The notes under the pieces are model-generated. The model ran no database searches, was not told the DNA's origin, and saw nothing but the letters and a program-made list of their open reading frames with translations. 42,642 bases of DNA from Methylococcaceae bacterium (GTDB lineage: Bacteria > Pseudomonadota > Gammaproteobacteria > Methylococcales > Methylomonadaceae): assembly GCA_030627265.1 (NCBI GenBank), contig DAOUSK010000007.1:1-42642 (forward strand), in the 5' to 3' direction. The position numbers and the translations under genes are program-made. This document shows, in pieces, positions 3,057 to 39,039 of this stretch. Every line of letters starts with the position of its first letter. The first letter of the stretch is position 1.

Positions 3057-3101
3057 GGGCGCTGGAAATAAATATCCGCCCCATATCTGCGTAGGATTTT
3101 T

Positions 3102-3136
3102 GTAGGATGGGTAGAGCGGCTTTTGCGAAACCCATC
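3102..3136. repeat. Dispersed palindromic repeat, copy 1
   Basis: GTAGGATGGGTAGAGCG, a short spacer, then GCGAAACCCATC. The outer arms GATGGGT (3106-3112) and ACCCATC (3130-3136) are perfect inverted repeats. Near-identical copies lie at 34143-34177 and 40668-40720. It sits in the prfB-lysS spacer. It resembles the REP/MITE-like intergenic palindromes common in gammaproteobacteria. Confidence 0.8.
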
Positions 3137-3230
3137 ATTTTACTTAAACGAATTACAGAACAACAATAGGGCTATTTTGGTGGTGTATCAAATAGTCAGA
3201 CTTTTAATAGTAAATTAAAGATAAAAGAAT

Positions 3231-32927: not shown

Positions 32928-34127
32928 ATGAAAGTGTTGATTTTAAATTCAGGTAGTTCATCAATCAAATATGCTTTATTTGAGATGAACTCTCAGCACC
33001 CTGAAATGAGCGGACTTATTGAAAGGTTAGGGGCTAAAGGAAGTCAGCATAAGTACTCGTTTACAGTTAATAATGTGACAAATAAACAAGTTATTTATGA
33101 TGAAATAAACAGCCATAAACAAGGGCTGCAAGCTATCTTTAAAGTTTTAACGCAACTCAACTTAATAACAAAACCTGATGATTTATTGTGTATAGGCCAC
33201 CGTGTTGTACATGGGGGGGATAAATTTTCTCAGCCAACGATTATTACAAATGCTGTATTAGCAGAAATTAAGCAAGTAACGCCACTTGCTCCGCTACATA
33301 ATCCCGCTAACCTATTAGGTATAGAAGAAGCGATGCTTTATGCACCTAATACAGCTCAGGTCGCTGTTTTTGATACTGCATTTCATCAAACTCTACCCGA
33401 TTATGCCTTTCAATATGCAGTGCCTCAAGATTGGTATAGTGAATTATCTGTTAGACGTTATGGCTTTCATGGAACCTCCCATTTTTATGTGGCTAAACAA
33501 GCAGGGAAGTCACTGAATATTCCCCTAGAATCATTAAATATCATTAGCTTACATTTGGGCAATGGTGCGAGTATCTCGGCGATTAAACAAGGAAAGAGTA
33601 TTGATACCAGTATGGGAATGAGTCCTTTAGAGGGGCTGATTATGGGCACGCGTTCGGGGGATTTAGACCCAGCGATTATTTTTTATCTCCAAGATAAACT
33701 CGGGCTTAGCAGTGAGGAAATAAAAATGGCCTTAAATAAAGAAAGTGGCTTAAAAGGCATCTGCCATGAAAGTGATATGCGTGCGGTGCATAAGCTCGCT
33801 GAATCAGGGGATCAACAAGCACAGTTAGCCTTAGCGATGGTGAGTTATCGTATAAAAAAATATATTGGTGCTTATTTTGCAGTATTAGGAAGAGTCGATG
33901 CGATCGTATTTACAGGAGGGATAGGCGAAAATGATAGCGCGTTAAGAGAGAGTTGCTGCGCTGGATTAGAGTTATTTGGAATAGTGATTGATGTTGATAA
34001 AAATAGACAGGTTCAAACTGATGTTAGGCATATTGAGCAAGAAGGTAGGCGAGTAAAAATTCTAGTGATTGCGACTAATGAAGAGCTGGAAATTGCATTG
34101 CAAGCAAAAGCTTGTGTGGAGGCATAA
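32928..34127 (+). CDS. ackA: Acetate kinase
   Basis: 399 residues from ATG 32928, which gives the family N-terminus MKVLILNSGSSSIKY and has AGG upstream. A longer frame from 32907 adds seven residues and abuts a hairpin. It has GFHGTSHFYV, DTSMGMSPLEGLIMGTRSGDLDP and FTGGIGEND, the acetate kinase signatures. It interconverts acetyl phosphate and ADP with acetate and ATP. No pta or phosphoketolase gene adjoins it; the acetyl-CoA synthetase at 40790 is the nearest acetate gene. Confidence 0.95.
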   Translation: MKVLILNSGSSSIKYALFEMNSQHPEMSGLIERLGAKGSQHKYSFTVNNVTNKQVIYDEINSHKQGLQAIFKVLTQLNLITKPDDLLCIGHRVVHGGDKFSQPTIITNAVLAEIKQVTPLAPLHNPANLLGIEEAMLYAPNTAQVAVFDTAFHQTLPDYAFQYAVPQDWYSELSVRRYGFHGTSHFYVAKQAGKSLNIPLESLNIISLHLGNGASISAIKQGKSIDTSMGMSPLEGLIMGTRSGDLDPAIIFYLQDKLGLSSEEIKMALNKESGLKGICHESDMRAVHKLAESGDQQAQLALAMVSYRIKKYIGAYFAVLGRVDAIVFTGGIGENDSALRESCCAGLELFGIVIDVDKNRQVQTDVRHIEQEGRRVKILVIATNEELEIALQAKACVEA

Positions 34128-34142
34128 AGTATCAGGTTTTGC

Positions 34143-34177
34143 GTAGGATGGGTAGAGCGCCTTTTGCGAAACCCATC
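34143..34177. repeat. Dispersed palindromic repeat, copy 2
   Basis: Nearly identical to the copy at 3102-3136. Arms GATGGGT (34147-34153) and ACCCATC (34171-34177). It lies between the convergent ackA and PAS-GGDEF-EAL genes. Confidence 0.85.
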
Positions 34178-34229
34178 ACTTTATATTTGGGATTGGTGTA
34201 ACATGCTTTTTCATAACTTCAGTTAGTGC

Positions 34230-36140
34230 TTAATTTTTTAGATTAAAAACATCATCAAAAGAAGTAGGCTTATGAATACCATAGCCTTGAGCATAGTTAA
34301 CCCCAAGCTCAGCTAAGATATCTAATATAGCTTGATCTTCTACAAACTCAGCAATTGTTTTTAGCCCCATTACTTGACCAATCTGGTTAATAGATTTAAC
34401 AAAGGCTCTATCAGTACTATCAGCAGCAATATCCTTAACAAAATAACCATCAATTTTTAAATAATCAACGGGTAAATCTTTTAAGTAGGCAAAAGAGGAT
34501 AAACCGCTGCCAAAATCATCTAAAGCGATTTTACAGCCCTTGGCACGTAACTGTTGTAGAAATTTTGTTGCCTTGGTTAAGTTAGAAATAGCAGCTGTTT
34601 CAGTGATCTCAAAGCAAAAATAGCTAGCCGGAATGCCAGAGCTATCCAGTAGATCACTGATTCTTTGTAGTAAGCTAGCATTGGCCATTGATAGCCCCGA
34701 TAAATTAATCGCAATCATTAAATTATTGGGTAATTTTTTTGATTTATTTAGCTGCTGTAATTTCTTAAATATATTTTCTATCACCCACTGATCAATGCTG
34801 CTAATAAGGTTAAATCGCTCGGCAGCAGGCAGGAAAGCACCGGGGGGGATGAGCTTGCCATTGTTATCGACCATACGCAATAACACTTCATAATGTTCTG
34901 AAGGGGTGCTTAAATTGCTTATATCTTGTATGCGTTGTAAATGGAGTTCAAATGCACCATTGTCCAGCGCTGTATGCAAGCGAGAAATCCACTGCATTTC
35001 TTGTTGATGCTCAGATGAGGCGGAAGCATTTAATTGATGGAAGTGAACACGGTTACGGCCATTTTCTTTTGCTATATAACAGGCTGCATCAGCGGCACTT
35101 AAAATTTCAGATGCTTTTGCTTCATTTCCTGATATGGCTGCAATACCGATACTAACACCAATTTTAAAAGATAGGGTTTTCCACCCAAAACGGAAGTCTT
35201 CTACAATTTGGCGCAAGTTATTAGCAATTGCTAGGGCGTGCTCTGCGTCACAGCTTTCTAATAAAATACCAAATTCATCCCCTCCTAAACGCGCTAATAA
35301 ATCAGCTTTACGTAATGAACTTCCTAGGGAAGCACTTATTTGTTTTAAAAGCTCATCACCGGCATCATGCCCACAAGTATCATTAACTACTTTAAATTGG
35401 TCTAAATCTAAATAGAGAAGATGGTGTAATAAATTATCTATACGTGATCTTTCCAGTAGATCTTTCATTTTAGCTTCAAACTGGCGTCGATTAGCGAGAC
35501 TGGTTAAAGGATCATGAAGAGCTTGCCAGTTTAATTTAGCTGAGAGTGAGCGAGAATGAGTGACATCTCTAAAAACAAGAACAGCGCCCTGTATTTGCCC
35601 GTCATTATCTAAAATGGGAGCAACTGAATCTGTTATGGATAAATACTCGCCCTCTCTAAAAAGGCAGTGATCAGTTTCATTCGCAATGATGTCTTGTTTT
35701 TCAAGGCATGTTGCAACAGGGCAGGGAATAGCTTTTTTAGAACTTTCGTGTACCACTTTGTAAAAATGAGCCACATTTTTATTGCGCGCATCCCCCTCAA
35801 AAAACCCCGTCAGAATTTCAGCAACTGGGTTCATAAACAATACGTTGCCTTTTTTATCGGTGGTAATGACGGCATCAGCAATAGAGTTGAGCGTAACGTG
35901 CGCACGCTCTTTTTCTTCGGCAAGTTTATCTGAAATAGCCTTGTTTTCTTTGACCTGTTCAATGAGCTGTTTTTCTCGGTTAACATTGGCACTAATATCC
36001 ATTATTTGAATCAAGCAATAACGTTTATTTTTAGCTAATATTAAAGGTTTTATAGTGATTTGGTGATGTATGGGCTGATTAAGATTATTAAATAAAGGAA
36101 AGGGTTTTTTATTTAATGAATGGGAAATAATTGAAGACAT
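34230..36140 (-). CDS. PAS-GGDEF-EAL c-di-GMP signalling protein
   Basis: 636 residues from the first ATG at 36140, but that start cuts a PAS domain whose N-terminal half is encoded in frame up to about 36359 (see the entry at 36141). Order after the start: rest of PAS 1, a short coiled coil, PAS 2 (about 85-200; ADAVITTDKKGNVLFMNP), GGDEF (about 205-365; intact RLGGDEFGILL), EAL (about 385-630). The EAL motif reads EVL, yet the catalytic Asn (INLSG), Glu (FEITET), DDFGSG, KID and Glu (AEFVE) are present, so both activities are possible. It is the third gene of an operon with a receiver protein and a CheC-like phosphatase. Confidence 0.9.
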   Translation of the reverse strand: MSSIISHSLNKKPFPLFNNLNQPIHHQITIKPLILAKNKRYCLIQIMDISANVNREKQLIEQVKENKAISDKLAEEKERAHVTLNSIADAVITTDKKGNVLFMNPVAEILTGFFEGDARNKNVAHFYKVVHESSKKAIPCPVATCLEKQDIIANETDHCLFREGEYLSITDSVAPILDNDGQIQGAVLVFRDVTHSRSLSAKLNWQALHDPLTSLANRRQFEAKMKDLLERSRIDNLLHHLLYLDLDQFKVVNDTCGHDAGDELLKQISASLGSSLRKADLLARLGGDEFGILLESCDAEHALAIANNLRQIVEDFRFGWKTLSFKIGVSIGIAAISGNEAKASEILSAADAACYIAKENGRNRVHFHQLNASASSEHQQEMQWISRLHTALDNGAFELHLQRIQDISNLSTPSEHYEVLLRMVDNNGKLIPPGAFLPAAERFNLISSIDQWVIENIFKKLQQLNKSKKLPNNLMIAINLSGLSMANASLLQRISDLLDSSGIPASYFCFEITETAAISNLTKATKFLQQLRAKGCKIALDDFGSGLSSFAYLKDLPVDYLKIDGYFVKDIAADSTDRAFVKSINQIGQVMGLKTIAEFVEDQAILDILAELGVNYAQGYGIHKPTSFDDVFNLKN

Positions 36141-36410
36141 CCCATTGTGTATTGCTGAGTTAATGCCGCGAAGAGTGCTGCTTTTTTCAAGGATAGGAAA
36201 TAGGTCTATTATATTTTTTCCTAGTGCATCAATGCTATCAATACTACATTTTTTTGCAAACCATGGATTCCATTCGATAATATTAAGCGCATCATTAATA
36301 ATGATTAAGCCTAGATCACTTCCTGAAAAGATAGGTTGAAAGATGTCTGGAGTAGAGATATTGGGTTCCTTTTTTGATGGAGCAGAGGTATGAATTAGCA
36401 GTATAAATAA
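36141..36410 (-). other. In-frame PAS-coding extension with no standard start codon
   Basis: Read on the minus strand, this stretch stays open in the frame of the GGDEF-EAL gene. It encodes a good PAS N-terminus (SGSDLGLIIINDALNIIEW, then NPWFAKKCSID). It begins right after the TAA (36411-36413) of the CheC-like gene, in the same frame. No ATG, GTG or TTG occurs in frame before 36140. An AAAAAAGGA Shine-Dalgarno (ending at 36367) stands 7 bases before an ATC codon at 36359, which gives a product starting (I/M)STPDIFQP. Choices: initiation at a near-cognate codon, readthrough of TAA to give a CheC fusion, or a sequence error. Confidence 0.7.
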
Positions 36411-37037
36411 TTACATATCTAGCATTTTTTCTATAGCCTTTTTGAATTGTTGAACGGATTCAACATCCATTAGAAATGTGACGTAACCCTGTAAGTTTTT
36501 TTTCTCAACAGAAAAATCCATATTGAGTAATAAGACAATAGCTGCTGTATTTTCTAAGACACCTTTGGCTGAAAAAACTTCCTGCAAAGAACCCTTTATA
36601 AATTCAGGAATGTCGCCATGAATTTCTTGGCTAAACATATCTGCCATACTACTTAAGCAGGAATTCAAGATGACATTACCAATTTCTGTCATGGCTTCTT
36701 GCTCCATATCTGTTAAGTCATTTAAGGTAATATCATCTTGTTGTAAGACAGCCCTGACTAATTCTAAGCTTTGCTCTTCAGGAAAAAGCAGCATAGCATC
36801 ACCACCAAAAGAGCCTTGAAAGTTTTGGTGTACGCCACTGACATTTGTTTTTGCTTTTTCACCAATAATTTTAGTGGCACCTAAGCGACTAACGAACTCA
36901 ACACCAGGGACGCTTAGTTTAACCTCATCAGAGATCATTTCACTTAATGATGCAGCAGCACTTCCCATGCCGATATTAAGAACTTCGGTGACGGCATCGA
37001 CAAAAAAATCATCTAATACAGCTTTTTTATCCGACAT
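36411..37037 (-). CDS. CheC/CheX-family phosphatase-like protein
   Basis: 208 residues. Two CheC-type active-site helices are seen: VTEVLNIGMGSAAASLSEM (Glu and Asn spaced EVLN) near residue 17 and MTEIGNVILNSCLSSMAD near residue 115. This pattern is that of CheC/FliY/CheX phosphatases, which dephosphorylate CheY-like proteins. The gene overlaps the upstream receiver gene by 11 bases, so that receiver is the likely substrate. The GGDEF-EAL gene lies immediately downstream in the same frame. Confidence 0.88.
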   Translation of the reverse strand: MSDKKAVLDDFFVDAVTEVLNIGMGSAAASLSEMISDEVKLSVPGVEFVSRLGATKIIGEKAKTNVSGVHQNFQGSFGGDAMLLFPEEQSLELVRAVLQQDDITLNDLTDMEQEAMTEIGNVILNSCLSSMADMFSQEIHGDIPEFIKGSLQEVFSAKGVLENTAAIVLLLNMDFSVEKKNLQGYVTFLMDVESVQQFKKAIEKMLDM

Positions 37038-37371
37038 ATTTTAATATTTTAGCTTCAGTGATGGGTTTAGGAATAAAGTCTACTTTTAGTTCTATGGCTA
37101 GTTTTTGAATGGCTTCTTGTACATTAGCTGTTAAAAAAGCAATTCTTGCATTTGGAAATTGTGGTCGCAAAATCTTTGCCGCTTCACCACCATTCATATT
37201 GGGCATATTAAAATCGAGCAGTATCATGTCTAATTCTTGATCTTTTGCTATATCAATTGCTTGCTGCCCATCCTGTGCTTGAAGTATTTCCCAATCAGGG
37301 TGTGCTTTTTCGATGATTTTATTGAGCATCATTAAGGACATTTTGCTGTCGTCCGTGATTAAGCATTTCAT
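37027..37371 (-). CDS. CheY-like single-domain response regulator
   Basis: 114 residues, receiver domain only. Acidic pair D7/D8, phospho-acceptor D53 in MILLDFNMPNMNG, Thr in AFLTAN and Lys in FIPKPI are present. It heads a three-gene minus-strand operon followed by a CheC-type phosphatase and a PAS-GGDEF-EAL protein. No histidine kinase is close, so its phosphodonor is elsewhere. A role in relaying a signal to c-di-GMP turnover is inference from the context. Confidence 0.93.
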   Translation of the reverse strand: MKCLITDDSKMSLMMLNKIIEKAHPDWEILQAQDGQQAIDIAKDQELDMILLDFNMPNMNGGEAAKILRPQFPNARIAFLTANVQEAIQKLAIELKVDFIPKPITEAKILKYVG

Positions 37372-37486
37372 ATTTTTTATCCTAAAAATAAAACTCTGGA
37401 ACTAATGTAGCAGAGTTTGTAAACTAGATGCAAACATAAAGTGAGTGTGAAAATTATGTTTGCAGCAAGGGGCGGGGTTAACTACC

Positions 37487-39039
<1,553 letters not shown>

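Follow-up and report, generated by a model that had tools for sequence, protein, structure and literature searches.

The infC gene of E. coli is reportedly autoregulated through its unusual start codon, a finding ascribed to Butler and to Brombach, both in 1987. AUC codons are in general poor starts and are normally disfavoured by the initiation factor IF3. Two further described systems are relevant here. In switches between the start codons AUG, GUG and UUG, the poorer codons tend toward compensation by a stronger Shine-Dalgarno sequence, as reported by Belinky, Rogozin and Koonin (2017; PMC5622118), and in coupled gene pairs the coupling of termination to reinitiation is almost abolished at a distance of about 20 nt, as reported in PMC10666635.

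The locus presented here, a PAS-PAS-GGDEF-EAL gene behind a gene for a CheC/CheX-like protein, shares with infC the lack of a standard start before the conserved protein and an AUC codon behind a Shine-Dalgarno sequence at about 8 nt. It differs from infC, where the near-cognate codon is conserved and said to be autoregulatory, in that the codon is found in one genome and the gene does not code for a translation factor. As in the switches treated in PMC5622118, a poorer start codon would be accompanied by a stronger Shine-Dalgarno sequence; the candidate codon is, however, none of the three considered there and lies 15 codons downstream. A report of a comparable near-cognate start was not found among the open-licence papers listed.

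Results

The window, i.e. the whole stretch of 42,642 nucleotides that was analysed, is one contig (G000:C7) of a metagenome bin of 2.3 Mb in 182 contigs, with a completeness of 91.5% and a contamination of 3.2%. Among named records, the closest one found is contig JAQRMR010000083.1 of a Methyloprofundus sp. metagenome-assembled genome, which is the same contig as G012:C104 of our set, the two agreeing in the 300 bases that surround the stop of CheC (the genome is referred to as G012 below). The organism thus appears to be a Methyloprofundus-like methanotroph. The same bin contains a contig of 4161 bp (C159, locus L067) with the gene order found at 33.7–37.9 kb of the window, a nucleotide identity of 79% and ends formed by fragments of ackA and purB, again as in the gene order of the window. 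Given the shared gene order including the ackA and purB fragments, together with the 79% identity, C159 is more likely to represent the equivalent locus of a second species in the bin than a duplicated copy or paralogue.

Unless stated otherwise, all features lie on the minus strand. The upstream gene codes for a CheY-like response regulator (37027..37371; Pfam Response_reg, 1.5e-20), which is also found beside CheC in G012, C159, G198, G195 and G194. It is followed by the CheC/CheX-like protein (36411..37037), which passes the curated cut-offs of both Pfam families (CheX 1.7e-12, 47.7 bits against a cut-off of 27; CheC 3.3e-8, 33.8 bits against 22) and ends with the stop codon TAA at 36413-36411. 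The body of the PAS-PAS-GGDEF-EAL gene is an open frame bounded by the probable ancestral start and the stop codon (34230..36404). Its GGDEF (2.7e-43, 147.9 bits, cut-off 23.8) and EAL domains (5.2e-67, 226.1 bits, cut-off 31.3) are Pfam matches above the curated cut-offs; the GGDEF domain is intact by sequence, the translated EAL motif is EVLLR and the product is predicted to be a c-di-GMP enzyme. Rfam gave no match at gathering score within the window, no terminator was detected in 36000-37600, where promoter-like sites number 8 against 5.7 (sd 2.4) in shuffled sequences, and a search for tandem repeats in 34000-37500 was negative. As a side observation, the repeat GTAGGATGGGTAGAGCG.CTTTTGCGAAACCCATC, roughly 40 bp in length, stands between genes at 3093-3147 and 34143-34184 and recurs at some tens of similar places in the window's genome and in G012.

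The frame in phase with CheC stays open behind the TAA from 36410 down to 34230, i.e. for 726 codons. The preliminary description had stated that it contains no ATG, GTG or TTG before 36140, and this was confirmed: the first standard codon in frame is the ATG at 36138..36140, located 90 sense codons after the CheC stop or 91 when the stop is counted. This ATG corresponds to residue 89 counted from an ATA at 36404, has no Shine-Dalgarno sequence and encodes a conserved internal methionine of a PAS fold which is invariant in ten aligned sequences. In the structural model described below, a start at this position would leave only the last of the helices and cost the fold its first two strands. 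As an internal Met codon that splits the PAS fold and has no Shine-Dalgarno sequence before it, ATG 36140 was rejected as the true start.

Whether the stretch upstream of 36140 is coding was assessed by substitution patterns and modelling. Between the window and G012, dN/dS amounts to 0.28 over the 5′ part, which reaches from the ancestral start position as far as 36140; it falls to 0.16 within residues 20-88 and is 0.07 in the remainder of the gene. The corresponding values for the 5′ part, residues 20-88 and the rest are 0.52, 0.35 and 0.11 between the window and C159, and 0.27, 0.13 and 0.11 between G012 and C159. The distances in dN to C159 over the 5′ part are similar (0.31 for the window, 0.29 for G012), the gap in dN/dS arising mostly from dS, and a mild relaxation of constraint in the window's lineage is possible. 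An AlphaFold2 model based on the ten-sequence alignment (mean pLDDT 83, pTM 0.76) contains a first PAS domain at residues 20-137 (35994..36347) with pLDDT values of 69-95 in blocks of ten; residues 1-15, counted from ATA 36404, have values below 50, and residue 20 is where the first helix starts. The best PDB matches listed for the model are mostly LOV/PAS domains, with Foldseek E-values down to 1.2e-7. Judged by the low dN/dS relative to G012 and the modelled PAS fold, the stretch upstream of 36140 is coding. The PAS N-terminus proposed in the preliminary description is thus upheld by dN/dS and the modelled fold but is only weakly supported by Pfam, which alone gives a weak first PAS domain (PAS_8, residues 24-74) with no stretch passing singly. 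The absence of a standard start from a conserved PAS-coding frame is confirmed, as far as the assembly can be relied on.

Relatives were collected by a family search of 237 genomes, 62 of which matched, 30 of the 67 matches being given as loci. Two of these 30 are the window and G012; the remaining 28 were used, supplemented by C159 and G012 and by a further 80 loci taken from named genomes; removal of nine duplicates left 101 distinct CheC loci. The CheC/CheX-like gene is directly followed by a PAS/GGDEF gene in 100 of the 101 (L039-L152), which range from Methylococcales to Oxalobacteraceae, and the one locus without such a downstream gene (L055) was set aside (n = 100). Among the literature matches listed, the gene pair is unnamed in titles and in the openings of abstracts. 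An in-frame ATG, GTG or TTG lies within 30 nt of the CheC stop in 96 of the 100 relatives, ATG being the codon in 88, and the four exceptions have standard start codons farther off, at +46, +50, +67 and +87 nt. In the relatives with a CheC identity of at least 50% (n = 18), 17 carry an ATG between -1 and +17 nt relative to the stop of CheC and one carries it at +87. The arrangement of these 17 resembles that of the coupled gene pairs in PMC10666635, from which the window differs by having no standard start in this range and a candidate start, ATC 36359, too far away for coupling by the distance limit given there. Since relatives keep an ATG near the CheC stop, the comparison indicates that the standard ATG is lost in the window's genome or in its assembly.

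The position of the lost codon was traced in the closest relative. Behind the CheC stop, G012 reads GTA TTG ATG and the window TTA TTT ATA. The ATA at 36402..36404 and the ATG of G012 are equidistant from both landmarks, 6 nt from the CheC stop and 25 codons from a conserved Phe of the PAS core in an ungapped alignment, and ATA 36404 is therefore probably the ancestral start. The match rests on equal distances and not on the flanking sequence, because the tail between ATA and ATC 36359 (codons 2-15) is only 50% identical to G012 (21/42 nt); in the ten-sequence alignment the two tails align with gaps. None of three species pairs gives evidence of amino-acid constraint on codons 2-15, which consequently do not discriminate between a start at AUA and one at AUC. 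According to the preliminary description, a near-cognate start would be refuted by relatives with an ATG at or near 36359. Such an ATG is present nearby, in G012 6 nt after the stop and 45 nt upstream of 36359, which points to a lineage-specific loss rather than to a conserved non-AUG start, a base error or a recent mutation being still possible.

One conceivable consequence is that AUA 36404 itself serves as the start for ribosomes that have just terminated CheC translation 6 nt upstream, at the same distance from the stop as the ATG of G012. Such a short distance favours coupling, and the near abolition at about 20 nt reported in PMC10666635 speaks against a coupled start at ATC 36359, 51 nt off. 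ATA 36404 is, however, not preceded by a Shine-Dalgarno sequence. AUA is also said to be a very weak start codon in E. coli, in work by Hecht from 2017. On balance, we regard reinitiation at AUA as quite unlikely.

A true and recent loss of the start, which would leave the gene poorly or not expressed, or expressed as a fragment from a downstream start, and would mark an early pseudogene, receives equally little credence from us. It would accord with the retention of a start near the CheC stop in 96 of 100 relatives and of a standard start farther off in the other four, with the lack of a conserved replacement start and with the higher 5′-part dN/dS of the window than of G012 relative to C159. 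Against it stand an uninterrupted frame of 726 codons, the sequence-intact GGDEF and EAL domains and the low dN/dS relative to G012, and the downstream ATG 36140 offers neither a Shine-Dalgarno sequence nor an uncut PAS fold.

Base-rate controls were performed on the window's genome. In 11 stretches of the genome, the first standard start lies more than 60 codons into the frame in 3 of 101 non-overlapping long frames. One is the PAS-GGDEF-EAL gene; the other two are short, with 147 codons and, in L230, 117 codons. The 147-codon frame shows the same lack of a standard start in G012. In an ortholog control, 95 reciprocal pairs with G012 were flagged if at least 10 aligned residues preceded the first standard start, which applied to 28 pairs for the window's genome and 23 for G012. 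Fifteen of the 28 flagged pairs were covered, and the five of at least 200 aa among them were inspected singly: the PAS-GGDEF-EAL gene, prfB and three with starts at the same position in both genomes. The other ten are short frames with 99-144 aligned residues, some of which are probably antisense shadows, and one of the short flagged frames (L236) is shorter than its G012 partner. In the prfB case, at 1998-2160 on the plus strand (ORF to 3056), conservation of the frame reaches beyond ATG 2148 on its upstream side, where no start codon is present; from its motif we take this frame to be prfB (release factor 2) with a programmed frameshift site.

These controls bear on the proposal that the real cell has an ordinary ATG which was obscured by a consensus error or by mixed strains. 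ATA differs from ATG by a single base, and the bin is fragmented and includes a contig resembling a second species. On the other hand, no other start loss was seen among the inspected genes of at least 200 aa compared with G012 (within the 15 of 28 flagged pairs), and the adjacent AAGGA-ATC would have to be a coincidence, so that we consider an error at the old ATG unlikely, though somewhat less so than the two preceding explanations. An indel at the run of six A residues, also raised in the preliminary description, is improbable as the source of the missing start, because the stretch from the CheC stop through the end of the run is free of ATG, GTG and TTG in every frame and a shift there could not supply an upstream start. 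Equality in length of the 5′ part with G012 likewise disfavours such an indel.

The second mechanism of the preliminary description, a CheC-PAS-GGDEF-EAL fusion produced by readthrough of the TAA, did not withstand the comparison. The frame is in phase with CheC in the window and in 12 of the 100 relatives, but the phase is not conserved (0, 1 and 2 in 12, 26 and 62 relatives, respectively), differing in 88, which led us to reject readthrough; all 18 close relatives also possess a separate ATG for the downstream gene. No RNA structure was found at the CheC stop (fold z-score 0.98; 168 of 200 shuffled sequences fold at least as well). A fusion by readthrough is accordingly scarcely conceivable.

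The best-supported reading is initiation at a near-cognate codon within the conserved frame. The first 30 codons contain six candidates, ATA 36404, CTG 36401, ATT 36395, ATC 36359, ATC 36344 and ATC 36332, and ATC 36359 is the only one with a Shine-Dalgarno match of at least 4 nt. This ATC (36357..36359; residue 16 counted from ATA 36404) is preceded at 7 nt by AAGGA (36367..36371) as part of AAAAAAGGA at 36375-36367, exactly as noted in the preliminary description, whose hint prompted the test of this site. For an estimate of its significance, coding segments of 24 codons were screened for a 5-nt Shine-Dalgarno sequence at a spacing of 5-9 nt before an in-frame ATT, ATC, ATA or CTG. Such sites occur in 43 of 1074 coding segments of the genome, with an ATC so placed in 7 of 1074, while shuffling of the segment yields such a site in 1.4% (bases) or 2.6% (codons) of cases. 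The same Shine-Dalgarno criterion applies to 12 of 83 first standard starts in the genome, these being first standard codons rather than verified starts. With a looser spacing of 4-12 nt, a 5-nt Shine-Dalgarno sequence stands before 87 of the 2209 near-cognate codons located within genes; given six candidates, the chance is then about 20%. Depending on the null model, the SD-ATC site is thus expected by chance with a probability of about 1-20%.

The predicted protein architecture is compatible with this start. In the model, initiation at ATC 36359 would remove just the disordered tail and keep both PAS domains, GGDEF and EAL, and the nine aligned relatives start 6-25 residues before the same PAS position, for which ATC 36359 gives 10. 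The near-cognate codon is not conserved among the relatives, as G012 and C159 carry ACT and TCT, respectively, at this place and have no AAGGA there either; none of the relatives is known to start at an ATC in this position, and a standard start within 30 nt of the CheC stop is present in 96 of the 100. Of the near-cognate initiation put forward in the preliminary description, ATC 36359 as the best-supported start is retained; ATA 36404 as the likely site of the ancestral start was not discernible from the window by itself. Taken together, the sequence features provide moderate evidence for ATC 36359 as the start, and we give about even odds to what is our most likely reading, namely that the protein is made from the near-cognate AUC 36359 after a lineage-specific loss of the ATG.

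The comparison with infC made in the preliminary description holds within the genus, with ATC instead of ATT as the start. In the window's genome, the open frame of infC has no standard start before residue 37 and reads ATC GCT TCT AAA AAA GAT after GGAGG. Among 18 genomes of the genus searched, the window's genome included, 16 contain infC (L242, L245-L259); all 16 have ATC at the likely start and all 16 have it behind a GGAG-like sequence (GGGG in one), a stop codon being located only one codon before the ATC in four of them. Because the infC ATC is invariant in 16/16 genomes, AUC initiation very probably works in this genus.

Discussion

The data are most likely explained by a lineage-specific loss of the ATG in an otherwise intact c-di-GMP gene which is now started at AUC 36359. 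We propose the following scenario: The ancestral ATG, located 6 nt after the CheC stop, would have become ATA in the window's genome. The intact protein could still be made from AUC 36359 by means of the AAGGA 7 nt upstream, and the shift would only cost the unconserved and presumably disordered N-terminal tail. Translation from the AUC would be low and independent of CheC termination 51 nt away, and the enzyme level could respond to IF3 availability, as that of infC does. A low enzyme level and a possible IF3 response are both expected because AUC is a poor start and disfavoured by IF3. A further-reaching and decidedly tentative suggestion, which we ourselves consider rather doubtful, is that relocation of the start, away from the AUG next to the stop of CheC and onto an independent, IF3-sensitive AUC, uncouples the c-di-GMP level from CheC translation and lets it follow the state of the initiation machinery, in the manner of infC.

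Gene finders limited to ATG, GTG and TTG would predict a truncated product beginning inside the PAS fold. The ancestral arrangement of the start is visible in the sister species, and the conserved infC AUC of the genus offers a ready control. If the AUC start is true, the locus would represent a natural relocation of a translation start once its AUG was lost, and this in a gene that serves signalling and is not part of the translation machinery.
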